Below, piece after piece: positions 6,440-27,493 of a stretch of DNA of 64,000 nucleotides (its first letter is position 1; each line of letters starts with the position of its first letter). The position numbers were made by a program, and so were the translations under genes. Below the pieces are notes generated by a model that was not told where the DNA came from, searched no databases, and worked only from the letters and a program-made list of their open reading frames with translations. This DNA comes from Armatimonas rosea (GTDB taxonomy: Bacteria; Armatimonadota; Armatimonadia; Armatimonadales; Armatimonadaceae): NCBI RefSeq assembly GCF_014202505.1, contig NZ_JACHGW010000003.1, positions 186,001 to 250,000 on the forward strand. Direction: 5' to 3'.

Positions 6440-6591
6440 AGCCAGGGCCTGAAAGTCCCTGACCGGGTACCCTTTGGGTGCGCCTTCGGCGAAGCGGGCC
6501 GAGCCCGCAGGGAGGGATGTCGCGGAGCGACTTTGTGGCGCTTGCGCCAGAAGCGAAGCGGGCCCGCCTCGTCCATGAGGCCGGCCCTTTT
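6440..6591 (+). terminator. Intergenic spacer with GC-rich repeats and terminator hairpin
   Basis: This spacer separates two convergent genes. It contains GCGAAGCGGGCC twice (about 6489 and 6552). Next to the mfd stop is a hairpin made of 6560-6570 and 6577-6587 (10 of 11 pairs) followed by TTTT. It can serve as terminator for the zinc-ribbon gene. Confidence 0.6.
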
Positions 6592-9500
6592 CTATCTCCC
6601 TCGCAGGCTGGCGCGGATGTCGCGGCGGCGCTCCTCGGACTTGGAGTCCGGGGTGGGCGGGGGCTCTTTCAGCGCCTTGTCGAGGTACTCGACCAGCTCC
6701 TCGGTCTGGGGGAGCACTTTTAGGGTCTGGATGTTCATCACCACTTTTCCCGGCTCGAAGCTGTAGCCCTGCGCGGGCTTGAAGGCGGCGGCGAGCGCAC
6801 GGACCGCGTGCTTGGGAAGCGCGACTCCGGCCTTGAAGGTGACGATCACCTGGCGTGCCTCGGTCTGGATGCTCTCGATCCCCACCTCCGCGCAGCGCAG
6901 GCGCAGGCGCAGGAGCCCCAGTGCATTCCAAACCGGCGGGGGCGGCGTGCCAAAGCGGTCCTCGAACTCATCTTGCAGGCGCGCGACATCGGCGCGGTCG
7001 CGGACCGCGGCGAGCTTCTTGTACATCAGGATGCGCTGCGGCTCGGCAGGAATGTAGGTCTGCGGGATGGTCGCGGCCACGGGCAGATCGACAGTCGGGA
7101 GGGGGATATCCTCTTTATCCGGCTCCTCGCCCTTGAGCTCATGAATCGCTTGCTCCAGGAGCTGCAGGTAGAGATCAAAGCCCACCGAGCTCACGGTTCC
7201 GCTCTGCTCCGCCCCGAGAAGATTGCCCGCGCCGCGTAGCTCTAGGTCTCTGAGCGCGATCTTGTAGCCGCTGCCCAGGTCAGTGAGCTCGCGGACCGCA
7301 TCGAGGCGCTGCTCGGCGATTGTCGAGAGGTTCTTCCCACGCCGGTAGAGCAGGTAGGCGTAGGCCTGCACCTTGGAGCGCCCTACGCGCCCGCGGAGCT
7401 GGTAGAGCTGGCTGAGCCCGAGCTTGTCGGCGTTGTCGATAATGATCGTATTGACATTGGGGATATCCAGCCCGGACTCGACAATGGTGGTGCAGACCAG
7501 GACATCGAACTTCTTGTGGTAGAACTCGAACATCGTGTCTTCGAGGTCGTCGTTGCTCATCTGTCCGTGCGCCACTTTGCAGCGCGCGGTGGGAACTAGC
7601 TGCTCGATATGGTTGGCGATATGGTAGATACTCTCGACCCGGTTGTGCAGGAAGTAGACCTGGCCGCCATGATCGAGCTCGCGCAGGATCGCCTCGCGGA
7701 TGAGCATGTCATCGAACTCTTTGACATAGGTCTTGACCGCGCTGCGGCCCTCGGGCGGGTCGTTGATGAGGGACATATCGCGGATTCCCGAGAGCGACAT
7801 GTGCATCGTGCGGGGAATCGGGGTCGCGCTCATCGCCAGCACATCGACACTCTGCCGGAGCTGCTTGAGGCGCTCTTTGTGCACGACTCCAAAGCGCTGC
7901 TCCTCATCGACAATCACCAGCCCAAGGTCCTTGAACGCGACATCTTTGGAGAGCAGCCGGTGCGTCCCCACCACGATATCCACACCGCCAACCCGCAGGT
8001 CTTCGATGGTCTTGCTGTGCTCCTTATTGCTTCGGAAGCGCGAGAGCTGATCGACCCGCACGGGGAAGGCGGCGAGGCGCTCGCTGAAGGTCTGGAAGTG
8101 CTGGGACGCCAGAACCGTCGTGGGGCACAAGACCGCCACCTGCCGGCCCTCACTCGCCACTTTAAACGCGGCGCGCATCGCCACCTCGGTCTTGCCAAAG
8201 CCCACATCGCCACAGATCAGGCGGTCCATTGGGCGGGGAGACTCTAGGTCCCGCTTCACGTCTTCAATGGCCGCGAGCTGATCCGGGGTCTCGGTGTAGG
8301 GGAAGGCCTGCTCCATGTCCTGAATCCAGGGCGAGTCGGGGGCGTAGGCATAGCCCTCAATGGACTGGCGCTTGGCATAGAGGGCGATCAGCTCCCCGGC
8401 GATCTCCTTAACCTGACGCTTGGCCTTGGCGGTCGCCTTGAGCCACTCCGTTCCTCCCAGCTTATTGACACTGGGCGAGCCGCCCTCGCTGCCGATGTAC
8501 TTCTGGACCCGGTCCACCTGGTCCACCGGTACATAGAGCCGGTCGGAGCCCTCGTAGGCGATGACTAAAAACTCTTTCTCCACGGGAGGCGCGCCCGGAA
8601 ACGGCGCGGTGTTCATCTTGGTCAGCCCCGCGTAGACCCCGACCCCGTGGTGGATATGCACCACGTAGTCGCCCGCCTTGACATCGAGCAGGCTCGTGAT
8701 GCGCATTCCCTCGCGGAACTCCTTGCGCTTGGTCTGCTTCTTGAACTTATGCCGGTCTCCGAAGATCTCCGCATCGGAGAGCACGACCAGCCCGGCCTCG
8801 GGGAGGCGGAAGCCCGCGGGGAGCAGGCCGTCGATCAGCTTGACCTTCTCGGTCTCCAGAACGCCAAAACCCCGAATCCGCGGAGCCTGCGCCGAGACAA
8901 TCGCCACGGTGGCCCCGTTGCTGGTCCAGGTCGCGATCGCGTCTTTGAGGGGGGCGGGGCGTCCCCCAAAGCTCTCGGCGGGCGCGCCTTGGACAGTGAG
9001 GTGCTGCGACGGTGCCAAGAACGGCAGGGCGCGCGCCAAGAGTGTCAGGAGCAAGGTCGGGTGGGCTGCCGTGAGCGCTTGGAAGGTTGGGGTGAACTCG
9101 CCCCAGAGGCCCCCCCCGCCCCCAAGATTGGGGGAGCCTGAGGGGGGGAGAATCTCGCCGCGCTCGGCGCGGCCGGCGAGGCTCTTGGTGATGCCATCGA
9201 GGACGCGCTCGGCGTAGGGCTCCAGCTGCGCGGGCTCATCGAGGATCAGGAGGGCACCCTCGGGGAGGAAGCTGGCGGTGGGGACGGCATCCGGGTGGAG
9301 GAGGGGCAGGTAGCGCTCTACCCCACCGAAGTAGTTGGCCAGCCCGATCTTGACAATGTCGCCCTCGGCGCTATCGCGGAGCTTCTCGGCGCGCTCGGGG
9401 GCGCTGGCGAAGCTTTTCAGCGCGACCGCGAGCTGCTTTTTCAGCGTCTCTTGCGCGGCGGCCATGCGCTCACGGGAGTAGGCCATCTCGTGCGCCGCGA

Positions 9501-10182
9501 CGATCACGACACTCTCTCGCTTGCCGTCGCTGCGCTGGCTCTCAGGGTCAAAGGGCCGGATGCTCTCGACATCATCGCCAAAGAGGTCGATCCGAATCGG
9601 GCCTTCCGAGTCGGCGGGCCAGACATCCAAGAGATCGCCGCGCCGTGCGAACGTCCCCGGAAGCTGCACGAGATCGGTGCGGCGGTAGCCAAAGGCATTG
9701 AGGCGCGCGGCGGTCTGGTCGAGCGAGAGCGTGCTGCCCACCGTGACTGTCAAGCGCCGTGCCTTGAGCACCGACGGTGGCGGGGCGAGCTGGAGCAGGG
9801 CGGTGGCCGTGGTCACCAGCACCTTGGGGTAGCTCCCCTGTGCTAGGTCGCCCAAGAGCCGCACGCGCTTGCCCGAGCCACGCACATCCCGCTCCGAGTC
9901 GGCATCGTCTAAGAGTAGGTTGAGCGAGCTGGGAAGCCGCTCCACCCCCTCGATCCCAAAGAGTGCGATATCCTCCGCCAGCCGCGCCGCGGCATCGTCG
10001 GTGTAGGTCACGACAACCAGAGGCTGAGAGAAGTCTTGGGCGAGGCGTGCCAGGAGCCAGCCTCGTCCAGCGACAGGCATTCCTTCGAGCTGGACAGCAC
10101 AGAGACCCTGCCGCAGTGCTTCTTCGGCCTGCGCCAGGGTCTTCCAGCCATCCGCCTGTGAGAGCAGAGCGGTCAAGTTCAT
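6592..10182 (-). CDS. mfd: Transcription-repair coupling factor Mfd
   Basis: A protein of 1196 residues counted from ATG 10182 (MNLTALLSQADG), the usual length. It has the UvrB-homology module near the N-terminus, the RNA-polymerase-interaction domain beginning at ITSLLDVKAGDYVVHIHHGV, and the RecG-like translocase. The translocase shows Walker A GDVGFGKTE, DEEQRFG (DEEQ box), SATPIPRT, and motif VI QLRGRVGRS, followed by the C-terminal TRCF domain. Mfd removes stalled RNA polymerase and recruits UvrA to DNA damage. The ORF is open 59 codons further upstream, but that part overlaps the divergent TPR gene's leader and lacks similarity. TATAAT (rc of 10192-10197) ends only 9 nt from the ATG, so the leader is very short. 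Confidence 0.97.
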   Translation of the reverse strand: MNLTALLSQADGWKTLAQAEEALRQGLCAVQLEGMPVAGRGWLLARLAQDFSQPLVVVTYTDDAAARLAEDIALFGIEGVERLPSSLNLLLDDADSERDVRGSGKRVRLLGDLAQGSYPKVLVTTATALLQLAPPPSVLKARRLTVTVGSTLSLDQTAARLNAFGYRRTDLVQLPGTFARRGDLLDVWPADSEGPIRIDLFGDDVESIRPFDPESQRSDGKRESVVIVAAHEMAYSRERMAAAQETLKKQLAVALKSFASAPERAEKLRDSAEGDIVKIGLANYFGGVERYLPLLHPDAVPTASFLPEGALLILDEPAQLEPYAERVLDGITKSLAGRAERGEILPPSGSPNLGGGGGLWGEFTPTFQALTAAHPTLLLTLLARALPFLAPSQHLTVQGAPAESFGGRPAPLKDAIATWTSNGATVAIVSAQAPRIRGFGVLETEKVKLIDGLLPAGFRLPEAGLVVLSDAEIFGDRHKFKKQTKRKEFREGMRITSLLDVKAGDYVVHIHHGVGVYAGLTKMNTAPFPGAPPVEKEFLVIAYEGSDRLYVPVDQVDRVQKYIGSEGGSPSVNKLGGTEWLKATAKAKRQVKEIAGELIALYAKRQSIEGYAYAPDSPWIQDMEQAFPYTETPDQLAAIEDVKRDLESPRPMDRLICGDVGFGKTEVAMRAAFKVASEGRQVAVLCPTTVLASQHFQTFSERLAAFPVRVDQLSRFRSNKEHSKTIEDLRVGGVDIVVGTHRLLSKDVAFKDLGLVIVDEEQRFGVVHKERLKQLRQSVDVLAMSATPIPRTMHMSLSGIRDMSLINDPPEGRSAVKTYVKEFDDMLIREAILRELDHGGQVYFLHNRVESIYHIANHIEQLVPTARCKVAHGQMSNDDLEDTMFEFYHKKFDVLVCTTIVESGLDIPNVNTIIIDNADKLGLSQLYQLRGRVGRSKVQAYAYLLYRRGKNLSTIAEQRLDAVRELTDLGSGYKIALRDLELRGAGNLLGAEQSGTVSSVGFDLYLQLLEQAIHELKGEEPDKEDIPLPTVDLPVAATIPQTYIPAEPQRILMYKKLAAVRDRADVARLQDEFEDRFGTPPPPVWNALGLLRLRLRCAEVGIESIQTEARQVIVTFKAGVALPKHAVRALAAAFKPAQGYSFEPGKVVMNIQTLKVLPQTEELVEYLDKALKEPPPTPDSKSEERRRDIRASLRGR

Positions 10183-10191
10183 GGAAACGGG

Positions 10192-10197
10192 ATTATA
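10192..10197 (-). promoter_or_regulatory. mfd -10 box, near-leaderless
   Basis: A consensus TATAAT on the minus strand lies 9 nt before the mfd ATG. Transcription would start about 3 nt before the start codon. No Shine-Dalgarno exists between them. Confidence 0.6.
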
Positions 10198-10251
10198 CCC
10201 CTCGCAAGAAAAAAATTCCGTTTGTGTCACTCCAGGAGAAGTAAAGAGTCG

Positions 10252-10276
10252 TATACTCTTGCTAATCGCAAAGGAG
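10252..10276 (+). promoter_or_regulatory. -10 box and ribosome binding site of first TPR gene
   Basis: TATACT (10252-10257) and AAGGAG (10271-10276) precede the ATG at 10286 with a 9-nt spacing. They fix the start inside a longer open frame that begins at 10181. Confidence 0.55.
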
Positions 10277-10285
10277 ATAGTTGAT

Positions 10286-11560
10286 ATGGCAGATGAGCAG
10301 ACACTGCGCGACCAGGGCGCGCAGCTTTTACGCGAAGGGAAGGTTCGGGAAGCGGTCACGCTTTTACAGCAGGCAGCGGAGCAGAACCCCCAAGATGAGG
10401 GGACCTGGCGGCTCTTGGGGGCCGCACTAGGGCAGAGCCACGACCCGGAGGGCTCGGTTACCGCGTTTCAGAAGGCAGTTACCCTGCTACCGACCTCCGC
10501 AAAGAACCACTACAACCTGGCGGTCGCTCTCCAGGTGGCCGAGCGTGGCAACGAGGCCCGGCAACACCTAGAGAAAGCACTGGCGCTGGACCCCAGCTAC
10601 GAGCAAGCGCGCCTGCGTCTGCGCGACCTGGCCGCCAAGACCGCCCCCGCCCCGATGGGCACCCTGACGCCCGCCGCGCCGCCGCCGCCGCGCACCAGCC
10701 TGACACCGGTCGGGGGAGGCGCGGGGCTCGCTCCGATTGGGGGGCTCGCGCCCATTGGGGGAGGGGCACCAGAGCCGCCCGCTCCGACAATGGCGGGCTT
10801 GCAGCCCGTTGGAGGAGGTGCGCCCGAGTACAGCGCCTCGCCGGGAGGCTACACGCCACCGTCGAGCCTCAGTGCGCCTACAGCGGGACCCCCGACCGGC
10901 TCGCGCGAGAAGCCCCTCGATATCCACGAGGGAATCCGCGCCACGGGCTACGATGCCTACCGCGGCCTCCAGGGCGATGTCGAGGGGGCGGTGCGTGGCT
11001 TCAACTTCGGGGCGATGATCTTTGGCCCGATCTGGCTCTGGAACCACGGGATGAGCGATATCGCCAAGTACTGGATTGTGGGACGCTTTGTGCTCCGTAT
11101 CGGGTTTGCAAGCTTCAATATCGGCTGGGGAGACATGGTGGTCGAGGTGCTCCAGCTCCTGGCGCGTGTCTTCCTGGGATTTTTTGGCAACCGCTTGGGC
11201 TGGGAGAACCGCTCCTGGGACGATGTCGATGACTTCAAGAGCTGCCAGCGGACCTGGGCCTGGTGGGCGCTGGGCTTTGTGGCGCTCGGAGCAGTGCTCT
11301 TCTTCACGGTCTCGACACTTATCTTCTCTATGCTGGGCCTCTCCGCGCTCACGGGAATGCGCGACGAACCTAAGACCCAGTCTATCCGTGCGCCCGATGG
11401 AACCCGGATGGAGATCCGCCAGGAGCAGGGGGGAGATGGCTCCTCGACCATGCGAATGTCGGATGGGACGGTGATGCATATTGATGCTCAGGGCAAGATG
11501 ACGGTCACCCAGCCCAATGGTCAGACACAGGGAATGCAACCAGGGGGTATGGGGCGGTAA
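10286..11560 (+). CDS. TPR membrane protein with DUF2628-like tail
   Basis: A 424-residue protein. Residues 1-115 hold about three TPR units (TWRLLGAALGQSHDPEGS, NHYNLAVALQVAERG, ARQHLEKALALDPSYEQA). A Pro/Gly/Ala-rich linker with repeated APIGG/TPVGGG-like blocks spans residues 120-220. A membrane domain follows, with FNFGAMIFGPIWLWNHG, typical of DUF2628 proteins, and further hydrophobic segments. A hydrophilic C-terminus rich in Met, Gln and Gly ends the protein. It is the first of three tandem TPR genes whose TPR part is clearly paralogous, most closely to the third. A soluble TPR domain tethered to the membrane suggests a scaffold; the partner is unknown. Confidence 0.78.
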   Translation: MADEQTLRDQGAQLLREGKVREAVTLLQQAAEQNPQDEGTWRLLGAALGQSHDPEGSVTAFQKAVTLLPTSAKNHYNLAVALQVAERGNEARQHLEKALALDPSYEQARLRLRDLAAKTAPAPMGTLTPAAPPPPRTSLTPVGGGAGLAPIGGLAPIGGGAPEPPAPTMAGLQPVGGGAPEYSASPGGYTPPSSLSAPTAGPPTGSREKPLDIHEGIRATGYDAYRGLQGDVEGAVRGFNFGAMIFGPIWLWNHGMSDIAKYWIVGRFVLRIGFASFNIGWGDMVVEVLQLLARVFLGFFGNRLGWENRSWDDVDDFKSCQRTWAWWALGFVALGAVLFFTVSTLIFSMLGLSALTGMRDEPKTQSIRAPDGTRMEIRQEQGGDGSSTMRMSDGTVMHIDAQGKMTVTQPNGQTQGMQPGGMGR

Positions 11561-11574
11561 AATAGCGTTTACTC

Positions 11575-12339
11575 ATGGATGAAACCAACGCGCGATACGA
11601 GCCCGGGAAGGCGCATCTTCGCGCCAAAGAGTTTACCGAGGCGACAGCGGCTTTTCAAAAGCTAACTGTCGCCGACCCACAAGACGCCGAGGCCTGGCAG
11701 TTTCTCGGAGCTGCACAGAGCCAGAGCAAGAACTGGGCTGCCGCTGTCTCCGCCTTTCGCAAGGCGGAGGCACTGGAGTCGACCGCACGCAACCGCTACA
11801 ACCTGGCGGTCGCCCTTAGCGAGGGGCTCTCTCGCCACGATGAGGCCCGCCTCTATCTGGAGCGTGCTCTGGAGGCAGATCCCAACCACGCGCCCAGCAA
11901 GGCCTTTCTCAAGCAGGTGATCGCCCTGAGCGCCGCCCCCACCTACGACCCACAGCAGGCACAGCGCCGAATGTCGCAGCTGGAGCGGCAGCGCGGGCCG
12001 GTCTCGCTGGGGCGAGCTGTGCTCGGCGGCGCGGTTGCGGTCGTGGTGGCAGGGGCGACCTGCTGGCTCTGGAACCTGGCGTCCCAGTTTGTCGGCAGCG
12101 GTCCGCTGGTGGCCTACGGCGCGGGCTGGCTGGTGGGACTCCTGACCGCCAAGGCCTGTGGGCGGGGCGGACGAACCGCCGCACTGCTGGCCGGTGGGGT
12201 GGCAGGAGTGGCCTTTGTGATCCTGGGGGGGATTCTTATCGCCCGGGCCCCCGATGACTGGATCTGGATTATTGTCAATGTCTTGGCGGTTGTAGTGGGG
12301 ACACGCCAGGCCTACCGGATCGCTCTGGCGGCAGAGTGA
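11575..12339 (+). CDS. TPR membrane protein, second of three
   Basis: A 254-residue protein with TPR units at residues 5-110 (AEAWQFLGAAQSQSKNW, NRYNLAVALSEGLSRHDEA, YLERALEADPNHAPS). Four hydrophobic segments follow between about residues 145 and 250 (GRAVLGGAVAVVVAGATCW, VAYGAGWLVGLL, AALLAGGVAGVAFVILGGIL, WIWIIVNVLAVVVG). Its ATG is 14 nt after the previous stop. There is no Shine-Dalgarno, but TAAAAT (11558-11563) ends 11 nt before the ATG, so it can have its own nearly leaderless transcript besides read-through. The function is unknown; the pairing of TPR and membrane domains matches its two neighbours. Confidence 0.75.
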   Translation: MDETNARYEPGKAHLRAKEFTEATAAFQKLTVADPQDAEAWQFLGAAQSQSKNWAAAVSAFRKAEALESTARNRYNLAVALSEGLSRHDEARLYLERALEADPNHAPSKAFLKQVIALSAAPTYDPQQAQRRMSQLERQRGPVSLGRAVLGGAVAVVVAGATCWLWNLASQFVGSGPLVAYGAGWLVGLLTAKACGRGGRTAALLAGGVAGVAFVILGGILIARAPDDWIWIIVNVLAVVVGTRQAYRIALAAE

Positions 12340-12359
12340 CGTATAAGGAGAGACCAGCG

Positions 12360-13178
12360 ATGTCGACACCACGTGAGGTTGGGGTACTTCGGATGAAGGA
12401 GGGGCGCTTCTCAGAGGCCGCTGCCGCCCTCGCCGATGCCGTGGCACAGGATCCCAAGGATGTGGGGGCCTGGCGCCTGCTCGGAGGCGCACTCGCTGCC
12501 TTGGAGGACACCCCCGGGGCGGTTGCGGCCTTCCAGCACACGGTCGCCCTCGATCCCAACCAGCCCAAGAACCACTATAACCTCGCGCTCTCGCTCCAGG
12601 CGGCAGGCGACCGGAGCGGGGCACGTCAGCACTTTACACACGCCCTGGCCCTCGATCCCGGCTATGAGCAAGCCACGCAGCGCCTCCGGGAGCTCGATGC
12701 TCTCCCCACGGTCCCGCCCGTGCGGATGGCACCCCCGCCGCCACCACCAACATCCGCCCCGAGTGGGGGACGGGTGCCGCTACCGCCGAACTACGCTCCG
12801 ACAAACCAGAGCTACACCCCGCCCTCGACCCTGGACTACGGCGGGGGCTACAGCGCCGCATCACCGGGCTACGGCTACGGCCAGGCACAGCGCCAGCAGG
12901 AGCGCCCCATGGTGGGCACGAGTGTCGCACCGCCCGTCAATGGGACCAATGTGCTGGTGATGGGAATCCTCGGCCTGACCCTGACTCCCATTCTCTCGCC
13001 CTTTGCCTGGTACCACGGCAAGCGTGCCCTAGAGCTCCTCGACCAGAACCCGCAGGCCGACCAGCGCCAGCGCTCCAATGCCCAGGCAGGACTCGTGCTC
13101 GGGGTGGTGGGGACGGTGCTCCTGGCACTGGGGGCGATCCTGCTCTGGCTGGTCTGGCTGGGCGGCGGTTTTCGCTAG
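12360..13178 (+). CDS. TPR membrane protein with DUF4190-like tail, third of three
   Basis: A 272-residue protein. Three TPR units occupy residues 1-110 and are close in sequence to the first gene of the trio (WRLLGGALAALEDTPGA, KNHYNLALSLQAAGDRSGA, ALALDPGYEQATQRLREL). A Pro/Tyr/Gly-rich linker follows (residues 120-190). The C-terminal two-helix membrane module (NVLVMGILGLTLTPILSPF, then QAGLVLGVVGTVLLALGAIL) resembles DUF4190. The frame opens at GTG 12336, overlapping the previous stop. AAGGAG at 12345-12350 points to ATG 12360 as the real start. It is in an operon with the upstream TPR gene. Confidence 0.77.
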   Translation: MSTPREVGVLRMKEGRFSEAAAALADAVAQDPKDVGAWRLLGGALAALEDTPGAVAAFQHTVALDPNQPKNHYNLALSLQAAGDRSGARQHFTHALALDPGYEQATQRLRELDALPTVPPVRMAPPPPPPTSAPSGGRVPLPPNYAPTNQSYTPPSTLDYGGGYSAASPGYGYGQAQRQQERPMVGTSVAPPVNGTNVLVMGILGLTLTPILSPFAWYHGKRALELLDQNPQADQRQRSNAQAGLVLGVVGTVLLALGAILLWLVWLGGGFR

Positions 13179-15643: not shown

Positions 15644-17188
15644 TCAGGAGTTTAGGTGTCTGGCGAAGTAGTCTTGGTAGAGACGACAGCGGAGCGACAC
15701 CGCATCGGCGGACTCTCCGGCGATGATGCCTGCGCTTCGAAGCCGGTAGAAGTGGTCAATTGGCACGCGCGGGGTACCGCTCAGCAAAGTACGGAGCGAG
15801 GCGGCGAGTTCGGGGCTGGCGTGCACTCCGCTTAGCAAGCGCCGCAGGTGATCCCCAAACGGGCCTTCGTCGCGGCTCCCCTCGGTTTCTAGGTGCTCCA
15901 GTGTTGCGTTACGGCTGGCGAGCGCATCTAGGCAGCAGCGCGTCAGGTAGGGATGCCCAGCGGTGAGAGCGTGAACGCGCTCCAGAGAGCTCTGTGTTGC
16001 CAGGGGGGAGCCGTAGCGCTGGTTGAGCTCTGAGAGCTGAGCGAGTGTGAAATCGGAGAGGGTCGCACGGGTTCCCACGTTGAAGGGCGACTGGTTGGCA
16101 TCCAGGATAAAGAGATGCGCCTCGGTGGCGTAGCCGATAGCCAGGGTCAAGCGCGACCAGGAGCTTGTGGGCTTGAGGGCGCGCCGGTTGTGCCAGGAGC
16201 GAAAGAGGCCAAAGATATCCGAGGCAAAGGGGCTACTGAGCAGCCGGTCGGTCTCGTCGAGCGCCCAGATCACCGGCGACGGATCGGCAGCGAGGATGCG
16301 GCTCTGCAGGAACATCTCTAGGTTGGTCTGGGGCGGCAGGTCCTCTGGCCAGTCGTCGGCGGGGTAGAAGGGGATCTCCAGCTCCAGCGCCAGGGTGCGG
16401 GCGAGGAAGCGAAAGAAGACATCCGGGGTGGCGAGGCAGGTCTCGGGGAGCGCTTGAATGTCGGTGAGGACGACGCGGGTTCCCTGGTGGCGTGCCTGCT
16501 CTAGCCCGCGTGCCAGCAGGCTGGTCTTGCCGATCTGGCGGGGGCCTTTGACCAGCACGATGCTATCGCGGCGGGCGATGGCATCGGCAAAGTCCCTGTC
16601 GGCAGGCCGCTCGATATAGAAGCGCGAGCCAGGGAAAACCGCCCCACCCGTGGTCTCCAGAGCGATGGTTTCTGTGGGCGTCGTGTTGGCAGTGCGCTCT
16701 CGTAGGCGTTGCGCGATCCGTGCCCGTCGCTGGCGTGCCTCCACTGCCCACACCTCGCTCCAGCCCTCCAAGAGTGGCGCTTCGGCGAGCACGAGCGCTC
16801 TCTGCCAGTCCTGCGGATCGGGGCTGGCGGCCTGGGTGTCGAAGGCGAGCAGATCGCAGTCAATACCGTCGAGGTTAAGCTGAACGACCCCCTTGCCGAC
16901 ACTGGCCAGCACCCCGGCATCGTCGCCGAGGTGCTGGCGGAGCGAGTAGATCGCTTGCCGCGTCGAGGGAAACTCCCCGGACTCGCTACGAGCTTCGGAG
17001 GGCCAGAAGAGTCCGGCGAGGGTTCGGTAGGTGATCGGGGTGCTGTGGTGGAGTACAAGATAGGCCAGGAGGCGCTCCCCCTCCCGCAGATGCAGGCCAG
17101 GAACACTCACGCCCCCTCTGGTTACGCAAAAGGCCCCAAAGAGCCGTATCGAGAGCAGCACCGGCACGGATTTTGTCACGCAAACCAC
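15644..17188 (-). CDS. SARP-type DNA-binding domain fused to AAA/STAND-like ATPase
   Basis: A 514-residue fusion. Residues ~10-115 form an OmpR/SARP-type winged helix (LSIRLFGAFCV, then RLLAYLVLHH, TYRTLAGLFWP, STRQAIYSLRQHLGD). A short BTAD-like helical start follows. From about residue 175 comes an AAA-like ATPase (AAA_35 family) with Walker A GPRQIGKTS (215-223), Walker B VIWALDETD (D311-E312) and a conserved QSPFNVG motif. SARPs activate genes by binding direct repeats next to -10 boxes. The ATPase part is closest to that of the cyclase-TIR protein. The start could be GTG 17188, 17167 or 17161; none has a Shine-Dalgarno. The operator repeats at 17175-17211 overlap the gene's start, suggesting autoregulation. 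Confidence 0.8.
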   Translation of the reverse strand: MVCVTKSVPVLLSIRLFGAFCVTRGGVSVPGLHLREGERLLAYLVLHHSTPITYRTLAGLFWPSEARSESGEFPSTRQAIYSLRQHLGDDAGVLASVGKGVVQLNLDGIDCDLLAFDTQAASPDPQDWQRALVLAEAPLLEGWSEVWAVEARQRRARIAQRLRERTANTTPTETIALETTGGAVFPGSRFYIERPADRDFADAIARRDSIVLVKGPRQIGKTSLLARGLEQARHQGTRVVLTDIQALPETCLATPDVFFRFLARTLALELEIPFYPADDWPEDLPPQTNLEMFLQSRILAADPSPVIWALDETDRLLSSPFASDIFGLFRSWHNRRALKPTSSWSRLTLAIGYATEAHLFILDANQSPFNVGTRATLSDFTLAQLSELNQRYGSPLATQSSLERVHALTAGHPYLTRCCLDALASRNATLEHLETEGSRDEGPFGDHLRRLLSGVHASPELAASLRTLLSGTPRVPIDHFYRLRSAGIIAGESADAVSLRCRLYQDYFARHLNS

Positions 17189-17226
17189 CGCACGTCACGC
17201 AACGGTGACGGAGTCCTCTCTATAAT
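17175..17226 (+). promoter_or_regulatory. SARP-like operator and promoter of the WD40-AAA gene
   Basis: GTCACGCAA occurs at 17175-17183 and 17194-17202 (19-bp period). The second copy starts a heptamer pair, GTCACGC and GTGACGG, separated by 4 bp (11-bp period). The last heptamer ends at 17211, 9 bp before TATAAT (17221-17226). The same arrangement is found at 21894-21945. SARP binding sites are known to be heptamer direct repeats with 11-bp period placed about 8 bp before the -10 box. Confidence 0.75.
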
Positions 17227-17306
17227 AAGGGTATATTGCACGTATCTTCAGTTCCCTATAGAACGTCAGGACTCCTGCAAAGAAGGTTTCTAGGAAAGCA
17301 CAGTTC

Positions 17307-20300
17307 ATGAGTACGGCATTGAATTTCTTCATCACGGGCGGCACCGTTCCAGCGAATGCGGCAAGTTATGTGGAGCGCCGCGCGGATACCGATCTACTTG
17401 CCGCGTTGCTCGCTGGTGACTACTGCTTCGTACTCAACTCTCGCCAGATGGGAAAGTCTAGCCTCTCCGTCCGTACCATTGGCAAGCTCGAAGCCGCAGG
17501 CGTACAAACCGCCTTTCTCGATCTGACCCGAATCGGCGCACAGAACGTCACCGCAGAGCAGTGGTACGCGGGACTGCTCGCGGAGACGGGACGTGCCTTG
17601 GAGCACCGTAGCCAAGTGCTGGCGTTCTGGCGCGCCAACACGCACCTGCCGCCTGTCCAGCGCTTCTTTACCGCCCTCCGAGATGTCCTCCTGGAGGCTA
17701 TCCCCGAGCCCATTGTGATCTTTGTGGACGAGATCGACGCCGTTCGTTCATTAAGCTTCCCCGCCGACGAGTTCTTCGCCGCCGTTCGCGCTTGCTACAA
17801 CAGCCGCACACAGGACGATATCTACAAACGATTGACGTTTTGTCTCGTTGGTGCCGCCACTCCGGCAGACTTAATCTCCGACACGCGCATGTCGCCCTTC
17901 AATGTCGGGCGGCGCATTGAGCTAAGAGACTTCACGCCTGCTGAAGCGGCACCACTGGCCGAGCACTTGCCCGATGGAAAGCCGACCCTCGACCGAATCT
18001 TGCACTGGACAGGTGGGCAGCCCTATCTCACACAACGTCTTTGCCGAGCTGTAGTGGAAGAGCCAAATACCAGTGTCGATCAGCTCTGCGACGGACTGTT
18101 CTTGGCGAAGTCTGCCCAAGAGAGCGATGACAATATCAGCTTCGTTCGAAATCGCTTGCTCAAGAGTGAAGTGGACTTGGCGAGCCTCTTGGACTTGTAC
18201 GGCAAGGTTAGCTCTGGCAAGAAGGTGCGCGACGATGAGACAAACCCGCTGTGTGGCGTGCTACGGCTCTCTGGTGCGTGTAAGCTGGACAAAGACTATC
18301 TGGTGATTCGCAACCGGATCTACGACCATGTCTTTGACAAAAACTGGGTCCTCTCCCACATGCCCGACGCCGAGCTACGGCGACAGAAAGAAGCGTATCG
18401 CCGGGGCTTGATCCGGGCGGCGGCTCTAGGTGGGTTCGTTTCCCTAGGGATGGCAGGACTCACCGGCTGGGCGCTCAATGAGCAAAGCAAGGCCAAGCGT
18501 AATGCCAAGCTCGCCCAAGACAATGCCGCCAAACTGAAGCAGGCGCTAGCTGTTGCAGATCAGCAGACCGAGAACGCTGTGCGGGCCGCAAGCCGGGAGC
18601 GCCAGCAGAGTTTCTTGAAGGAGCAAGCACTGGTCAAGGCAACCACGGCAGAGCGCGCCACAAAGCTCGCTCTCGTGAAGGCAACGAACGCAGAGAAACA
18701 GACCAAACTGGCGCTGACCCGCTCGGAGCAGGCCAAACGGGAGTCGCTCCAGCTCGCCGAGCAGCGGGAGAGAGCACGACGTGAGGCCGACGACCAGCGC
18801 AAGAAGGCGCTGGCATCCGGCAAGAGCGCACTGGAAGCCAAGGCGCTGGCGGAGCGCTACTTTGCCAACGCAAACCTACAGCTCGCTGCCCAGGCGTGGG
18901 AGACAGCCGATGGCTCCGGGGAGGCAGTACGCTCGTTACTCCTGGACTGCCAGCGCGATCCCAGCACGACCAACTCGTTTGCGTGGCGCTATCTATGGAC
19001 ACAGCTCAACCAGGGCGGGAGCAACTGCCGGGCGTTTCCTCATGGCGGCTCGCGGGTGATCGGAAGCGCTTTTTTGCCCGATGGCTCGCTGTGGACGGTA
19101 AACTTAGGTGGGATTCTAACGCACTACGCGGCCAACCAGACAACGCCCAGCAAGACCATTGCCTTGAGTAAGCTCGTTCCCAGCGCCAGCCTCAATGCCT
19201 ATGCCCTCTCGCCCAAGGGTAATGTCGCTTTCGTCGGCACAAAAGAGGGCAAGGTGGCGGTGGTGGACATTGCCAGCCAGCGCGTGACCAAGTGGCTCAC
19301 CGTGGACGAGAAGCCCAGTGCGATTGCTTGGGTTACCGTTGCGCCGGAGGGCGATAATATCGCCGCCGTGGACGAAGCGGGACGCTGGCTGGTCTGGAAC
19401 CAGGAAACAGGCACGTTTCTCCATCGCTTCCCGTTCAGCATCTCGCCGAGTACCTACATCGCACGTCCCCAGAGCCTACTCGTCACCTCCGGGCCGAACC
19501 CACGCATCGCCTATCGGGATGCCTTCGACTTTTTCCTCCTCCCCGACACCGCCTCGAAAACGCTTCCGGATTGGAAGGCAGTAAAAGCGCTGGGGCAGTA
19601 CTTCGGGCAGAGGCTGGATGGGGATGGGGAGCTGCGTCCCGTCGGTGAGTTCCAGCACCGCTCCAGCGGTACGGGGATGGCACTCTCACCCGATGGCACA
19701 CAGGCCGCAACCACCGACGAGAGTGGCAAGGTGATTGTCTGGGATCTGAAGACCAACCTGGGACGTTTCAAGATCGATGCCCATGCCACCCGTGGGGGGG
19801 TGGCAACCTTTTCCAGCACTAGCAAAGCACTGGCCACGGCAGCGGACAATGGGACCGTACGGGTTTGGGATGCACAGACGGGCGCACTCCTCCATTCGTT
19901 CAAGGGGCAGACATCCCGTATCCTCCATCTAAGCTTTTCCTCCGACGATACCCAGCTCCTGAGCGCCGATGAGGAGGGGGGGCTGCGCCTCTGGTCCCTG
20001 AAGGACTCCACGAGCTCCCTGCAGACCAAAGCCGGGGCGATTGCAGCCGTGAGGTTTGTGCACGATCCAAGAGTGGATCCCACGGTTCTCGCCCTGCAGT
20101 TTTCTTCGGATGGCAAGAGACTTCTAGTTGCCAACAGAGATGTCGTCGAGCTAGACGTTTCCCCCCAGGGACTCACGCTGGGGCGCTACCTGCACCAACT
20201 ACAGGTCGTGCGATCAGCGGCGGAGGGGAGGGCTTTCTTTCAACTTCCTCCCACGGCGACCGTCGCCGATGTGGACGCTGCGTGGAACAAGCGAACGCTC

Positions 20301-21875
20301 GCCCAGATCCGGAAAACATCCGCGAGCTTCTGTGCCCACTTCACTCCCGATGGGCGCTCCATCATGTTGTCCGTCGTCGGGGAGCTCGTGACCTTCGACC
20401 GTGCGAGCGGCAAAGAGAAAGCGGCGTGGAGCCTCCGCAACCTTCAGGAGGATTTCCAGGGATCGATCTCCTGTTTTGCCTATGCCCCGGATGGCAAAAG
20501 CATGGCAGTCGGCTTTGGTTACCGTCAAAACACCACTCGTAATTATGCACAGACGGTTGCTATCGTGGATACCGCGACAGGACGAGAGATTCAGACACTC
20601 AAGGGCTTCCTGAACCATATCCTCGATATGGGCTTTTCCCCGGATGGCAAGACTCTCGTGATTGCCTGCTTGGATAGAACGCTCAGTTTCTACCAGAAAA
20701 AAGGCAACGACTGGGCACTCACCTACCGTCGCGATACTGTCAGTGCCCCGCCCACCTCCCTCGCCTTCTCTCGTTCGGGCAAGCAGCTCGCGGTGGGCTT
20801 TTTCGATGGTCGTGTAGAGCTTCTGGACCCCACCAAGCCGACCTCTCCGGTGCTTCACACTCTCGTGGGACACTCTAAATTTCGGGTGAACACCCTCACC
20901 TTCTCGCCGGACGGCACGACCCTGGCGTCGGGGTGCTGGGATCAGACCGTCAAGCTCTGGGACACCATCACGGGCCGCGAGCTACGCACGCTCTACGGAC
21001 ACAAAAACTGGATCAATGCCGTTGCCTTCAGCCCGGACGGCCACACGCTCGTCAGTGGCGATGCTAACGGACAGATCCTCGTTTGGCCTGCGACTCCTGT
21101 CTCGCGGATCGCTCAAGTGGAAGACAGCAAGCTCCTTAAACGCGTCCTTCAGCTACAGGCGGCTGAGAGGGTAGACATGACGTTACTTGCCCAGCTCCTC
21201 GCACGCTACCCCGACGATACCAGCGTCAAGAGTACCTACCAGGAGGCGCTTCTTGCTCCCCGTGAGCGTGCTGCCCGTGACGCAATCGCCCGTAAGGACT
21301 ACGCCCGGGCCGCAACCGCCTACCTCGCCATCTGCCGACAAACCAAAAACGAAGAAAACGCGCTTCAGGCCGCCTGTGCTCTCCTCCTTGCCGGTGACAC
21401 ACGCGGCTACCAACAGCTCTGCAAAGAGATTCTGGAAAACTACAGCAAGGTCCTCGGGAGCGACTCAACCTCCACCTTCCTCTCCATCTGCACCTTTACT
21501 CCAGATGGTCTTACCGCCAATCCTGCGGCCTTTCGTCGCCTCGTAGATCAATGGCGCTCGCGCAATGACATCAGCAGCAGTGTTGGGCCAGGGAACCTCG
21601 CGGAAGGACTCTACCGCCTTGGGGAGTACCAAGAGGCTCTGACTCTCCTCCAAAAACAGGCGGGCGACCGCAGGGAATATGACTTTGAGATATCGCTCTA
21701 CCTGTCCTGTATCTACGCCAAACTGGGCAAGCCTGCGGAAGCGAAGGCCGCCTATGAAAATGCCGCCACACTCCGCCGAGAGCTCAAGGAGGACTTCATG
21801 ATGGAAGCGCTCTGGGTCACCATCGGCAAGGAAGCGCGGGGGCTCCTCAAGCTCCCTGAGCCAGCAGGGCAGTAA
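17307..21875 (+). CDS. AAA-like ATPase with membrane anchor, coiled coil, WD40 propeller and C-terminal TPR
   Basis: A 1522-residue protein. The N-terminal AAA_35 domain (residues 5-355) starts FFITGGTVPANAASYVERRAD. Its P-loop is N44-S-R-Q-M-G-K-S-S52 (first Gly replaced by Asn, as in cyanobacterial relatives), and the Walker B is VIFVDEIDA (D141-E142). One hydrophobic segment at about 366-388 probably crosses the membrane. A Lys/Ala/Gln-rich coiled coil spans about 390-530. A WD40 region fills about 560-1270, with blades such as TLTFSPDGTTLASGCWDQT and VKLWDTITGRELRTLYGH. The C-terminus (about 1275-1520) has TPR-like helices. It looks like a sensor-scaffold whose WD40 face binds a partner. 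Its promoter carries the operator shared with the cyclase-TIR gene. Confidence 0.85.
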   Translation: MSTALNFFITGGTVPANAASYVERRADTDLLAALLAGDYCFVLNSRQMGKSSLSVRTIGKLEAAGVQTAFLDLTRIGAQNVTAEQWYAGLLAETGRALEHRSQVLAFWRANTHLPPVQRFFTALRDVLLEAIPEPIVIFVDEIDAVRSLSFPADEFFAAVRACYNSRTQDDIYKRLTFCLVGAATPADLISDTRMSPFNVGRRIELRDFTPAEAAPLAEHLPDGKPTLDRILHWTGGQPYLTQRLCRAVVEEPNTSVDQLCDGLFLAKSAQESDDNISFVRNRLLKSEVDLASLLDLYGKVSSGKKVRDDETNPLCGVLRLSGACKLDKDYLVIRNRIYDHVFDKNWVLSHMPDAELRRQKEAYRRGLIRAAALGGFVSLGMAGLTGWALNEQSKAKRNAKLAQDNAAKLKQALAVADQQTENAVRAASRERQQSFLKEQALVKATTAERATKLALVKATNAEKQTKLALTRSEQAKRESLQLAEQRERARREADDQRKKALASGKSALEAKALAERYFANANLQLAAQAWETADGSGEAVRSLLLDCQRDPSTTNSFAWRYLWTQLNQGGSNCRAFPHGGSRVIGSAFLPDGSLWTVNLGGILTHYAANQTTPSKTIALSKLVPSASLNAYALSPKGNVAFVGTKEGKVAVVDIASQRVTKWLTVDEKPSAIAWVTVAPEGDNIAAVDEAGRWLVWNQETGTFLHRFPFSISPSTYIARPQSLLVTSGPNPRIAYRDAFDFFLLPDTASKTLPDWKAVKALGQYFGQRLDGDGELRPVGEFQHRSSGTGMALSPDGTQAATTDESGKVIVWDLKTNLGRFKIDAHATRGGVATFSSTSKALATAADNGTVRVWDAQTGALLHSFKGQTSRILHLSFSSDDTQLLSADEEGGLRLWSLKDSTSSLQTKAGAIAAVRFVHDPRVDPTVLALQFSSDGKRLLVANRDVVELDVSPQGLTLGRYLHQLQVVRSAAEGRAFFQLPPTATVADVDAAWNKRTLAQIRKTSASFCAHFTPDGRSIMLSVVGELVTFDRASGKEKAAWSLRNLQEDFQGSISCFAYAPDGKSMAVGFGYRQNTTRNYAQTVAIVDTATGREIQTLKGFLNHILDMGFSPDGKTLVIACLDRTLSFYQKKGNDWALTYRRDTVSAPPTSLAFSRSGKQLAVGFFDGRVELLDPTKPTSPVLHTLVGHSKFRVNTLTFSPDGTTLASGCWDQTVKLWDTITGRELRTLYGHKNWINAVAFSPDGHTLVSGDANGQILVWPATPVSRIAQVEDSKLLKRVLQLQAAERVDMTLLAQLLARYPDDTSVKSTYQEALLAPRERAARDAIARKDYARAATAYLAICRQTKNEENALQAACALLLAGDTRGYQQLCKEILENYSKVLGSDSTSTFLSICTFTPDGLTANPAAFRRLVDQWRSRNDISSSVGPGNLAEGLYRLGEYQEALTLLQKQAGDRREYDFEISLYLSCIYAKLGKPAEAKAAYENAATLRRELKEDFMMEALWVTIGKEARGLLKLPEPAGQ

Positions 21876-21893
21876 CGCCAGCCATTAGATTCC

Positions 21894-21945
21894 GTCACGC
21901 AAGCCCCCCACCGTCACGCAACGGTGACGGAGGAATTTCTATACT
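21894..21945 (+). promoter_or_regulatory. SARP-like operator and promoter of the cyclase-TIR-AAA gene
   Basis: GTCACGCAA at 21894-21902 and 21913-21921, then GTGACGG at 21924-21930, and TATACT at 21940-21945. Every spacing equals that of the copy at 17175-17226, although the 10-bp spacer and the 8 bp before the -10 differ. The start codon follows directly on the -10 box. Confidence 0.78.
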
Positions 21946-21951
21946 ATGACT

Positions 21952-23985
21952 ATGAACGAACCGATACGCGCCGCACAGATCGCCCACGTGCTCTTTCTCG
22001 ATGTGGTCGGCTACTCCAAGGAGTCCACGACTACCCAGGGCAAGCTCTTAGAGCAGCTCAATGCCGCCGTCAACGCCAGCACTGCCTTCCAGCGCGCCAA
22101 GAACGACGGTGCTGTCCTGCCCATTCCCACCGGCGATGGCATGGCGCTGCTATTCTTTGTCGATGTGCTCGCTGCCGCCCAGTGCGCTATCGAGATTCAG
22201 AAAGCTCTGGTTGGTGTCCCTGTGCGCATGGGGATTCACAGCGGCCTGGTTCAGAAGCAGCTCGATATCACGGGAAGCGAGAACGTGGTCGGGGAGGGCA
22301 TCAACACCGCCAGCCGCGTGATGGGCTTTGGCGACACGGGACATATCCTCCTCTCCGCCCAGTACGCCCTCGTGCTCAGTCAGTTCGACGACTGGAAGCC
22401 GCGCCTGCACCTCTTGGGCGATGGCACCGCCAAGCACGATCTGCAGATCCAGCTCTTTAGCCTCCACGGCGACGGCTTTGGCAACGCAGCCAAGCCTGCG
22501 AGTGTCACCCGGCCCACATCGGGGATTCCCAGCCAGAAAGTGGTGCTGCTCTACAAGCGCAACCTCCCCGAGGACGAGAAGGTGCTGAAGCTGCTGGAGC
22601 GGCACCTGATCGAGAACGGCCACGAGGTCTTTGTGGACCAGCACCTCAAGATCGGGGTGGAGTGGGCACGCGCCATCGAGGACAAGATCCGCGCCGCCGA
22701 TGCCGTGGTCGCCATTGTCTCCCCCAAGGCCATGCAGTCCGAGATGCTCGAGTACGAGATGGAGACCGCCCACGACCAGCACCAGAAGACCGGCAAGCCT
22801 GCGCTTCTGCCCGTCAAGATCGGCAACGAGGAGCCGCTCGACGGCGTGATTGCCTCAATCATCAAGCCCCTCAACTACTTCGAGTGGCACGGCGAGGGCG
22901 ACGACGCAAGGCTTGTCGTAGAATTGCTCTCTGCGATCCATGAGCCGCTGAGGCCCCGCCAAGAGGAGATCAAGCTAGAGCCCGTCGGCGGCGCGGTGCC
23001 CCCCGGCTCCCCGTTCTATATCGCACGCGCCACCGACCCGGAATTCTTCACCGCGCTGGACAACCACGAGAGCATCTTGCTGGTGCGCGGTGCGCGGCAG
23101 ATGGGCAAGACCAGCCTGCTGGCCCAGGGCAACAAGCATGCCCGCGACCGTGGCTGGCGCATCGGGATGACCGACTTTCAGAAGCTCAACATGAGCCAGA
23201 TGAGCAATGAGGAGACGTTCTACAAACTTGTCGCGGCGACTCTTGCCCGTCAGCTCAAGTTCAAGTACGACTTTGAGAACGAGTGGCTAGATCTCTTTGG
23301 GGCCAACTTAAACATGGAGGCGTTTCTTCGGGCGCTGATCGAAGAGCAGGACGAGCACCTGGTCTGGTTCATGGATGAGGTGGACAAGCTCTTTCTCGCG
23401 CCGTTTGCCAGCGACTTCTTTGGGCTGGTGCGCTCTTGGCACAACTCACGCTCCATCGAGCCCGACGGCCCCTGGAGCAAGCTGACGGTGGTGATCTCCT
23501 ACGCCACGGAGGCACATCTCTTCATTCAGGATCTGAACCAGTCGCCGTTTAATGTCGGGCGGCGCATCGAGCTGGAGGACTTCAACGCACAGCAGATGGT
23601 GGACCTGAATGGGCGCTATGGCTCGCCGCTACGCAGCTACCAGGAGGTGGAGAAGCTCCAGGCGCTCATCGCAGGTCAGCCATTTCTCACCCGCCGGGCC
23701 TTAGACTCCCTCGCCACCGGCAAGCTGGACTTTGCAGGTCTGCTGGAGAGCGCCACCCGCGACGATGGCCCGTTTGGGGATCACCTTAAGCGCATCCTGG
23801 TCTCGGTCTCCAGCCTCCCCCCCGTGCTGGAGTTCGTCCGCGCCCTACTTGCCGGCAAGCCCAACAACGACCAGAGCACCTACTACCGCTTACTTGCCGC
23901 CGGGATCATTCGGCAGGACCGCGACGGCAGTGTCCGCTTCCGCTGTGAGCTCTACAAGCGCCATCTCGCCGACCATCTAACCTAA
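21952..23985 (+). CDS. Class III nucleotide cyclase - TIR - AAA-like ATPase fusion
   Basis: A 677-residue three-module protein. Residues ~10-170 form a class III cyclase: FLDVVGYS (D17), TGDG (D62) as metal ligands, and GINTASR (N118, R122) for transition-state contact, all present. Residues ~195-330 form a TIR domain (KVVLLYKRN, GHEVFVDQHLKIG, AVVAIVSP, then S-x5-E), with E269 in the place of the NADase Glu. From ~345 a SARP-neighbour-like AAA_35 ATPase follows: Walker A GARQMGKTS (380-388), Walker B VWFMDEVD (D475-E476), QSPFNVG. The -10 box TATACT ends at 21945. An ATG at 21946 would lie before the likely transcript start, so ATG 21952 in a leaderless mRNA is preferred. It may sense and signal stress or phage, but that is inference. 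Confidence 0.85.
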   Translation: MNEPIRAAQIAHVLFLDVVGYSKESTTTQGKLLEQLNAAVNASTAFQRAKNDGAVLPIPTGDGMALLFFVDVLAAAQCAIEIQKALVGVPVRMGIHSGLVQKQLDITGSENVVGEGINTASRVMGFGDTGHILLSAQYALVLSQFDDWKPRLHLLGDGTAKHDLQIQLFSLHGDGFGNAAKPASVTRPTSGIPSQKVVLLYKRNLPEDEKVLKLLERHLIENGHEVFVDQHLKIGVEWARAIEDKIRAADAVVAIVSPKAMQSEMLEYEMETAHDQHQKTGKPALLPVKIGNEEPLDGVIASIIKPLNYFEWHGEGDDARLVVELLSAIHEPLRPRQEEIKLEPVGGAVPPGSPFYIARATDPEFFTALDNHESILLVRGARQMGKTSLLAQGNKHARDRGWRIGMTDFQKLNMSQMSNEETFYKLVAATLARQLKFKYDFENEWLDLFGANLNMEAFLRALIEEQDEHLVWFMDEVDKLFLAPFASDFFGLVRSWHNSRSIEPDGPWSKLTVVISYATEAHLFIQDLNQSPFNVGRRIELEDFNAQQMVDLNGRYGSPLRSYQEVEKLQALIAGQPFLTRRALDSLATGKLDFAGLLESATRDDGPFGDHLKRILVSVSSLPPVLEFVRALLAGKPNNDQSTYYRLLAAGIIRQDRDGSVRFRCELYKRHLADHLT

Positions 23986-24984: not shown

Positions 24985-26013
24985 TTATTCTACCGCTGAT
25001 TTACTCATTGCCCGTTGCCGAAGCTGCCGCGCTCGATCCCGAATCTCGGTATCTGCTGGGCGCTCCTGCCCCTCCATTCGTAGCAGTCGCATTGCCTCGT
25101 TGCAGTAGCTCCGAGCTTGGTCGTAGGGTAATTCAGGGAGCCAGTCTGCCGGGATAGGTCGAAGGGCTTTGACGATGCGCTGGGGGCGCTCGTCAATATC
25201 GCTAGTATGAGTCGGTTTACCACCAGGCAGCAGGTAGACCGCGCCTCGAACTGCCGAGCGGACAGCGGCGCGGATGAACCCGGCAGGTGATCGGAGCTTT
25301 GAAGCACTGGCAACGGCGACGGCATGAGTGAGTTGCTCCAGCGTCCCTCCATCTGAAGCGATCCCCTCGGCCAGGAGTTCGGCTTCGGCCTCGGGAATCC
25401 CGACCTTCTGCGTCAGCAGAGAGACAGCAGCAGAACCCAGGTTCGCCTGAGGCTTCTCCCGAGCCTGTGGTTGGGCTTGGCTTGTTGTAGTCTCTTCCGG
25501 ATTCCCTTTATCAGGTGAGAGCCGAAGAGTTTGCCGAAGCCTACCCGAAGAGTTCTTGGGAGCAGGCGGCGGCGAAGCGGACGTAGCGAGATCAACTCCG
25601 AGCTTCTTAAGATCGGGGCGATTGGGGCAGTGGCGTTTGACGAGAGCCGCCGCAAGTCTTCGGATAGCCGAAGGGAAAGTGTCTCGCTCCAGGATGGCGA
25701 GCCAGAGCGCATGCCAGCCGCGCTTCATCACCTCGGTGAGCTTTACCAGCGGGCGAATGCGACGCTTAGGGCCGCGTACCTCAATCTCGATTAGTCCGTA
25801 GTCTTTGAGCTGGCGTAGCAAAGCCCGGACGTGATCGGGGACGATCCCCGCCTGCTTGGCGAGGAACTCGTTACCCACGATGCAACCATCAGTGCGTGCG
25901 TCGTTGTAGCAGATGTCACGAAAGAGCCGCGCAAGACGCCGCTGGGCGTCCCAACGTCCGTCGGGAATAGTGATGAGAGAAGCTGTGTCAGAGTTGGCTT
26001 GAAGGTGTGGCAC
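24985..26013 (-). CDS. Winged-helix, replication-initiator-like DNA-binding protein
   Basis: A 342-residue protein starting at GTG 26013 after AAGGGG. The N-terminal 100 residues contain a winged helix (ARLFRDICYNDARTDG, NEFLAKQAGIVPDHVRALLRQLKDYGLIEI). This matches the HTH_36-type N-domains of plasmid and phage replication proteins, where distinct 'conserved immobilised' host-range elements carry it. A Pro/Ser/Lys-rich linker (residues 145-200) follows, then a helical domain. The composition suggests an origin-binding or helicase-loader-like protein, or a transcriptional regulator. It heads a three-gene minus-strand operon next to a recombinase remnant, so an integrated-element origin is plausible but not shown. 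Confidence 0.55.
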   Translation of the reverse strand: MPHLQANSDTASLITIPDGRWDAQRRLARLFRDICYNDARTDGCIVGNEFLAKQAGIVPDHVRALLRQLKDYGLIEIEVRGPKRRIRPLVKLTEVMKRGWHALWLAILERDTFPSAIRRLAAALVKRHCPNRPDLKKLGVDLATSASPPPAPKNSSGRLRQTLRLSPDKGNPEETTTSQAQPQAREKPQANLGSAAVSLLTQKVGIPEAEAELLAEGIASDGGTLEQLTHAVAVASASKLRSPAGFIRAAVRSAVRGAVYLLPGGKPTHTSDIDERPQRIVKALRPIPADWLPELPYDQARSYCNEAMRLLRMEGQERPADTEIRDRARQLRQRAMSKSAVE

Positions 26014-26644: not shown

Positions 26645-27493
26645 ATGCCCCTACTGTACTACTGGCACCCTGACAACTACCACCGCGATCTGGATATGGG
26701 GGCGGGTTTTCATTTAAATCAGTCGAATCCTCTTCTACATTCCATTGAGGTGGGCGATAGCCTTTGGGCGTTCACGCGAAACAAGTCTGGGCAGTACGTT
26801 TTAGCCGCTGAGCTGCTTGTCAAAGCCAAGACCGAAAACCCTCCGAATTTTCGCTACGGCCCGTATCGAATCTGGGGCAACCTGAAGGAGTCTCGCTATT
26901 TTCTCGCCGATGACGATGCACCCAGCGTGGAGCAAGTTATTCGCTCGCTCAGTGTGAAAGCAGGTGCCACGCGACTTGGGCAGTCGTTTCAGGGACACGC
27001 TGCAGTTCGGAAAATCACCGAGGCGGATCATCAGATGCTTCGGGTGGCGGCAAGCGGATTGTCATTGGAGCCGCGGGCGCGGATTCTCCCCGAGGAGCGT
27101 CTGGAGGCGGCGGTTCTCCTGGGCGACGAAGAGGCCGTACGCCAGCTCTTGATAGAGGAGCCATCAGGCGTTGCGGAGGCGCGAGCGGCGTATCTGTTTT
27201 CTCAAGCACCGACTCGAAACCGTCAGCTGGTGAAGGAACTCCAGAAAATTTATGAGGGCAAGTGCCAGCTCTGCGGCTGGAATCCGAGAAATGAGTACGG
27301 GCACTGGCTCTGTCACGGTCATCATATCCACTGGCTCAGCCGGGGTGGGGAAGATGATTTAAAGAACCTTCTGCTTGTCTGCCCGAACCATCATGGAGCG
27401 ATTCACGCTTGCGATGCACAGCTTGATTTCAAAGACTTTACTTTTAACTTCGGCGTGAGGATTGAGCAGGTAGAACTCAATCTCCACATCTAA
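26645..27493 (+). CDS. HNH endonuclease with PUA/EVE-like N-terminal domain
   Basis: A 282-residue protein. Residues 1-90 (YYWHPDNYHRDL, GDSLWAFTRN, YVLAAELLVKAK, YGPYRIWGNL) have the beta-rich pattern and aromatic residues of PUA/EVE-like base-reading domains. A helical linker follows. The C-terminal HNH nuclease has zinc-type cysteines C207 and C210 (CQLCG), HGHHIHWLSRGGEDDL with the catalytic His pair around 226-229, N241, and VCPNHHGAIH. Proteins joining a modified-base reader to HNH are known as modification-dependent restriction enzymes, so defence against modified phage DNA is the best guess. Its probable mRNA is nearly leaderless. It follows the recombinase remnant. Confidence 0.75.
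   Translation: MPLLYYWHPDNYHRDLDMGAGFHLNQSNPLLHSIEVGDSLWAFTRNKSGQYVLAAELLVKAKTENPPNFRYGPYRIWGNLKESRYFLADDDAPSVEQVIRSLSVKAGATRLGQSFQGHAAVRKITEADHQMLRVAASGLSLEPRARILPEERLEAAVLLGDEEAVRQLLIEEPSGVAEARAAYLFSQAPTRNRQLVKELQKIYEGKCQLCGWNPRNEYGHWLCHGHHIHWLSRGGEDDLKNLLLVCPNHHGAIHACDAQLDFKDFTFNFGVRIEQVELNLHI

Follow-up and report, generated by a model that had tools for sequence, protein, structure and literature searches.

A SARP-AAA_35 protein and two GTCAC-repeat promoters at an AAA_35 gene locus of Armatimonas rosea: a proposed control circuit

Analysis of a 64,000-nt stretch of the Armatimonas rosea genome (the window) points to a likely regulatory role for a SARP-domain protein fused to an AAA_35 NTPase, which would act as a STAND-type activator on two promoters, that of its AAA_35-WD40 partner and that of a cyclase-TIR-AAA_35 gene. 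These elements probably form a self-contained control circuit rather than a chance arrangement, since relatives share the operator word, its distance to the promoter and the kind of regulator encoded next door. An earlier note on this DNA had proposed the SARP neighbour as the activator of a two-promoter regulon, and our comparative tests (repeats, enrichment, distance to the -10 box and the presence of two copies) agree with that proposal.

Paired operator-promoter blocks and their genes

The two blocks read GTCACGCAA-N10-GTCACGCAACGGTGACGG-N9-TATAAT at site 1 (17175-17226) and GTCACGCAA-N10-GTCACGCAACGGTGACGG-N9-TATACT at site 2 (21894-21945), confirming the two equally spaced sites with differing spacers that had been noticed at 17175 and 21894 (Table 1). 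GTCACGC occurs within the distal word at -58 as well as at -39 in both sites (coordinates are relative to a start set as the -10 box plus 12), and no -35 element was found at spacers of 15-19 in either. The period of 11 bp proposed for the heptamers holds for GTCACGC and GTGACGG but fails for the distal word, which stands at a 19-bp step.

Table 1 Genes and proposed operator-promoter elements of the window
Feature	Position	Strand
SARP (OmpR-type wHTH, short BTAD) fused to AAA_35 STAND-like NTPase; proposed activator	15644..17161	-
AAA_35, candidate membrane helix, coiled coil, WD40 propellers and C-terminal region; proposed sensor, site 1 target	17307..21875	+
Class III nucleotide cyclase (weak match), TIR, AAA_35; proposed effector, site 2 target	21946..23985	+
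Distal operator word GTCACGCAA, site 1 (-58)	17175..17183	+
Operator heptamer GTCACGC, site 1 (-39..-33), at -35 position	17194..17200	+
Operator heptamer GTGACGG, site 1 (-28..-22), 11 bp past preceding heptamer	17205..17211	+
-10 box TATAAT, site 1, 9 bp past last heptamer	17221..17226	+
Distal operator word GTCACGCAA, site 2 (-58)	21894..21902	+
Operator heptamer GTCACGC, site 2 (-39..-33)	21913..21919	+
Operator heptamer GTGACGG, site 2 (-28..-22)	21924..21930	+
-10 box TATACT, site 2	21940..21945	+

The repeats reported for SARP promoters are direct and have a period of 11 or 22 bp, the 3' one lying some 8 bp away from the -10 box, and the afs box occupies -40 to -30 and -29 to -19, overlapping the -35 position (PMC10936776). 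The heptamers of the window equal the afs box positions within 1-2 nt, and the last of them lies 9 bp from the -10 box at both sites (8 bp in the register TSACGSA), which fits the SARP rule.

Over the 53-bp blocks, sites 1 and 2 are identical at 43/53 positions. A recent local duplication of the promoter, in which this likeness would come from ancestry instead of regulator demand, is consistent with two very similar blocks lying only 4.7 kb apart and with the 46% identity that the SARP and TIR proteins share in their AAA_35 domains. We nevertheless regard it as very unlikely: only 5-8 positions agree in the 20-bp flanks, which is close to random, the 10-base and 9-base spacers are unlike while the words are identical, and other families of the phylum show these words again at this spacing.

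The start predicted for site 1 falls at about 17233. That of site 2 is 21952, the A of the second, in-frame ATG, and this coincidence suggests that the site 2 mRNA may be leaderless; the gene may also be expressed from a read-through transcript of the upstream gene, since GGAGG (21929-21933) stands 12 nt ahead of the first ATG of the cyclase-TIR-AAA_35 gene. A leaderless-type layout like that of site 2 was also observed at an AAA_35-WD40 gene in a relative (L140). The SARP ORF is extendable to 17188, and the site 1 operator overlaps the 5' end of this divergent gene, so that binding there could also reduce SARP expression.

The genome (6.33 Mb, 98% complete), whose scanning the earlier note had suggested, was searched with three patterns: the operator core with at most three mismatches, the direct repeat of 19 bp, and the core joined to the -10 box. 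Each pattern returned the two window sites and otherwise only chance-level matches, which reversed-pattern controls equalled or exceeded in number; shuffled windows gave zero matches, with zero expected. With only two copies in the genome, the many unrelated copies named earlier as possible counter-evidence are not there. Both copies lie at AAA_35 genes adjoining the SARP gene, and the regulon of the operator in this genome comprises two genes. No site, and no full-length close relative of the regulator, was found in a genome of the same genus (G001) or in one of the same family (G007). At the paralogue loci of the own genome (L059, L060 and L065), the surroundings of the module contain no GTCAC word. 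At L059, two copies of TTAAGGCAA near 11068, with a 19-bp step between them, immediately precede the start of a SARP-AAA_35 paralogue; this step is the same as in the window and the word is different.

Assignment of the neighbouring gene as a SARP is borne out by a family profile (E=5.6e-20 against the AfsR SARP domain and 7e-17 against EmbR) and by the fold of its N-terminus, which matched EmbR/AfsR with a probability of 1.0 (Foldseek); profile and fold both identify an N-terminal OmpR-type wHTH. As a single sequence, the protein matched Pfam Trans_reg_C only at E=0.063 and had no Pfam BTAD match. It retains only about the first helices of the BTAD, which is full in its relatives at L060 and L065 and, by alignment, at L106 and L107. 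Relative to the base-reading residues of AfsR, T88 is changed to Q and R92 to S. Recognition-helix types RQ..S/Y and RR..D both accompany one GTCAC core, and a simple recognition-helix code was rejected, because Q is consistent with the window clade at the T88 position and other GTCAC loci carry R there.

The remainder of the protein matched AAA_35 (E=7e-74; Walker A GPRQIGKTS). In the model of the whole protein (mean pLDDT 91.7), the NTPase has a P-loop core with a STAND-like fold and matched archaeal PABY2304/SSO1545, Avs3/Avs4, CED-4 and MalT, the allotment of fold matches to the NTPase or the N-terminus being our own. The candidate membrane helix of the AAA_35-WD40 protein was read directly from the sequence. 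PADLOC matched no full defence system and gave weak TIR and P-loop matches only. Downstream of the three AAA_35 genes are encoded a weak Crp-like HTH protein (24985-26013) and an HNH endonuclease-like protein (26645-27493).

The operator in relatives across the phylum

The closest wHTH relatives (45-56% identity) have GTCAC repeats with an 11-bp period in their own loci. At L102, three GTCAC words in a row, GTCACGATTTGGTCACGATTTGGTCACAG, precede the SARP gene. At L106, the AAA_35-WD40 gene is preceded by GTCACGT-21-GTCACGC-11-GTCACGA-TTGGGCGGT-TAGAAT, with 9 bp between the last word and the -10 box, and at L105 GTCACCT-11-GTCACAA precedes the second SARP gene, the 19/11 spacing occurring elsewhere in the locus. 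L107 has no GTCAC word and L103 only a degenerate version, while more distant SARP loci also contain GTCAC words (L126, L130-L133, L135, L138, L140 and L141). The operator also occurs with a TIR-AAA_35 gene at L221, a non-SARP exception. As to gene arrangement, L105 has two tandem SARP-AAA_35/AAA_35-WD40 operons (2274-12748), with a GTCAC array of 19/11 spacing and a gene for a DDE transposase lying beside the first. At L102, a near-identical block, GTGACTGTTTTTGATACsGAAwCGTGACCA, is found twice (3246 and 8034), upstream of both AAA_35 genes, and resembles the two-copy arrangement of the window.

Near the AAA_35 starts of SARP loci, GTSAC cores are spaced most often by 11 bp (n=17), followed by 12 bp (n=4), and the remaining spacings mostly have 0-2 cases each (window included). 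A GTSAC pair was found near AAA_35 genes in 15/35 SARP loci as against 1/29 TIR/cyclase-AAA_35 loci (Fisher p=0.0003), and per gene in 17/75 upstream windows as against 8/323 upstream control windows, which belong to the other genes of those loci (p=3e-8); these p-values overstate the evidence and are guides only, because the loci share ancestry and because some of them are also where the spacing and offset first came to notice. The other 20/35 SARP loci gave no GTSAC pair and have a different word or one that went undetected. Hexamers resembling the -10 box (>=4/6 matches to TATAAT; window excluded, both directions taken) peak at +11 bp from the last GTSAC core (12/50), with 5 at +10 and about 1 at other offsets. 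Counted over the whole phylum, the raw pattern GTCACN6GTSACN10-12TANNNT is modestly above its reversed control in total, a figure that we do not rely on alone because the signal sits in particular genomes and loci.

As direct repeats, the two heptamers of the window are identical at 5/7 positions; GTCAC and GTGAC also form an exact inverted repeat at both sites, so the window alone cannot separate the two orientations. That GTCAC-N6-GTGAC is the operator of some unrelated dimeric regulator, be it a repressor or an activator, is nevertheless highly improbable, even though the weak Crp-like HTH protein encoded nearby offers a candidate reader. As far as sequence comparison goes, the relatives settle the orientation as direct: outside the window, 23/23 GTSAC pairs of 11-bp period are direct repeats, on which ground the inverted-repeat operator was rejected, and the 12-bp pairs are mostly GTGAC-GTCAC. 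Moreover, a third direct copy stands upstream at both sites and the -10 spacing obeys the SARP rule. The direct repeats of 11-bp period agree with the rule for SARP operators, from which the 19-bp word departs, and both an inverted-repeat regulator and bare duplication fit the data poorly.

The main rival to a SARP-AAA_35 reader, which we judge unlikely, is a different OmpR-family regulator as reader of the boxes, either a PhoB-like protein at a pho-type box or another SARP/BTAD protein of the genome. PhoB/PhoP boxes (TGTCA or GTTCACC, 11-bp period) look similar to the GTCAC operator, their 11-bp direct repeats likewise replace the -35 element, and their readers also have an OmpR-type wHTH. 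In addition, about 20 other SARP-like proteins are encoded in the own genome, and a few genomes have GTCAC promoters with no SARP-AAA_35 protein detected; in G111 and G113, where such promoters are present, the wHTH search gave no match. However, the window SARP has no receiver domain, the own pstS locus has TTAACCCTGAGTTAAC upstream instead of a GTCAC repeat, and phoU loci have no GTSAC repeat, on which grounds a Pho-box regulon was rejected. Another SARP of the own genome is the more plausible alternative reader after these results. The only two genome copies both adjoin the window SARP gene, and the operator follows the SARP-AAA_35 gene across the phylum. The element upstream of own-genome pstS (L244, upstream of 1444) is itself an 11-bp-period repeat and a candidate pho box.

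The proposed circuit and known systems

The circuit with SARP-AAA_35 as activator, as we infer it, comprises DNA binding, activation, NTPase gating, AAA_35 hetero-assembly, and sensor and effector roles. SARP-AAA_35 protomers would occupy the two GTSAC heptamers (-39 and -28) next to each other, in the manner of AfsR, with the third operator word at -58. The bound protein would replace the missing -35 element and bring RNA polymerase to the -10 box, activating transcription through AfsR-like contacts with sigma region 4 and the polymerase. AAA_35 would be its STAND-like NTPase switch, so that nucleotide state and contact with AAA_35-WD40 probably control whether the protein binds DNA or activates. 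As output, the circuit would boost its own sensor, AAA_35-WD40, and the cyclase-TIR-AAA_35 effector.

AfsR of Streptomyces coelicolor, a large SARP with NOD and TPR (8HVR, 8JKE and 8K60), also combines an OmpR-type wHTH with a STAND-like NTPase, and the window resembles the afs box in having 11-bp direct repeats at about -40 to -19 in place of a -35 element. In contrast to AfsR, the NTPase is an AAA_35 domain nearest to PABY2304/SSO1545, Avs3/4 and CED-4, the BTAD is shortened, the base-reading residues and the heptamer differ, the host is not an actinomycete, and the targets are STAND/TIR genes. PimR, a SARP-LAL, reads three heptamers with 4-bp spacers (PMC5930380). It likewise joins a SARP domain to an ATPase half (cyclase/LAL-like in PimR) and acts through several heptamers on a neighbouring gene, whereas its heptamer is CGGCAAG, its operator lies off the -35 position and it belongs to antibiotic clusters (PMC5930380). 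MalT/STAND ATPases and Avs/NLR receptors are similar in the STAND-like model of AAA_35 and in the WD40 or TIR sensor/effector modules; unlike in those proteins, the sensor, DNA-binding and TIR outputs here are on separate AAA_35 proteins, with no known Avs domain set.

To our knowledge, the rules of SARP activation come almost only from Streptomyces antibiotic clusters. The SARP promoter grammar is now seen in a distant phylum, where its proposed reader joins a SARP to a STAND-like NTPase and would control a TIR/cyclase protein as well as a WD40 sensor, a possible case of an NLR-like architecture driving transcription. For AAA_35 gene pairs, a large and uncharacterised family, these results provide a wiring diagram open to testing and, in the GTCAC word, a handle for finding their regulons.

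Modules and regulons beyond the window

In most loci read across the phylum, an AAA_35-WD40 gene adjoins an X-AAA_35 gene in variable orientation, X being SARP, cyclase-TIR, cyclase or TIR. Read by gene content, the window locus is a hybrid of two such recurrent modules around one AAA_35-WD40 gene. More speculatively, and with considerable doubt, the phylum may use a modular STAND relay, in which a membrane AAA_35-WD40 sensor would serve interchangeable AAA_35 outputs, SARP or cyclase/TIR. Both outputs would be joined in the window, where the sensor signal would first induce the sensor and the TIR effector via the GTCAC promoters. Such a relay, if true, would be an inducible, primed circuit for immunity or cell fate.

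The earlier description of the operator as linking AAA genes stands for the own genome and is limited to it, because GTCAC promoters in relatives also serve genes for secreted proteins. In genome G021, four promoters with GTCACGT-21-GTCACGS-11-GTCACGA-9bp-TATACT/TAGAAT serve AAA_35-WD40 and three genes whose proteins have signal-peptide-like starts; loci of this multi-promoter type indicate that a two-promoter layout beside SARP-AAA_35 is not unique to the window, and a TIR target of the operator, as in the window, is unusual. In other families, the gene behind a GTCAC promoter often encodes a secreted protein or a lipoprotein, in several cases divergently from AAA_35-WD40, and a surface-protein regulon under the same GTCAC operator is possible. 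GTCAC-repeat promoters were observed before secreted, lipoprotein or weak PEP-CTERM genes at L181 (5771), L182 (6240), L183 (7843), L184 (7442), L185 (6508), L192, L197, L201, L203, L207, L211 and L212.
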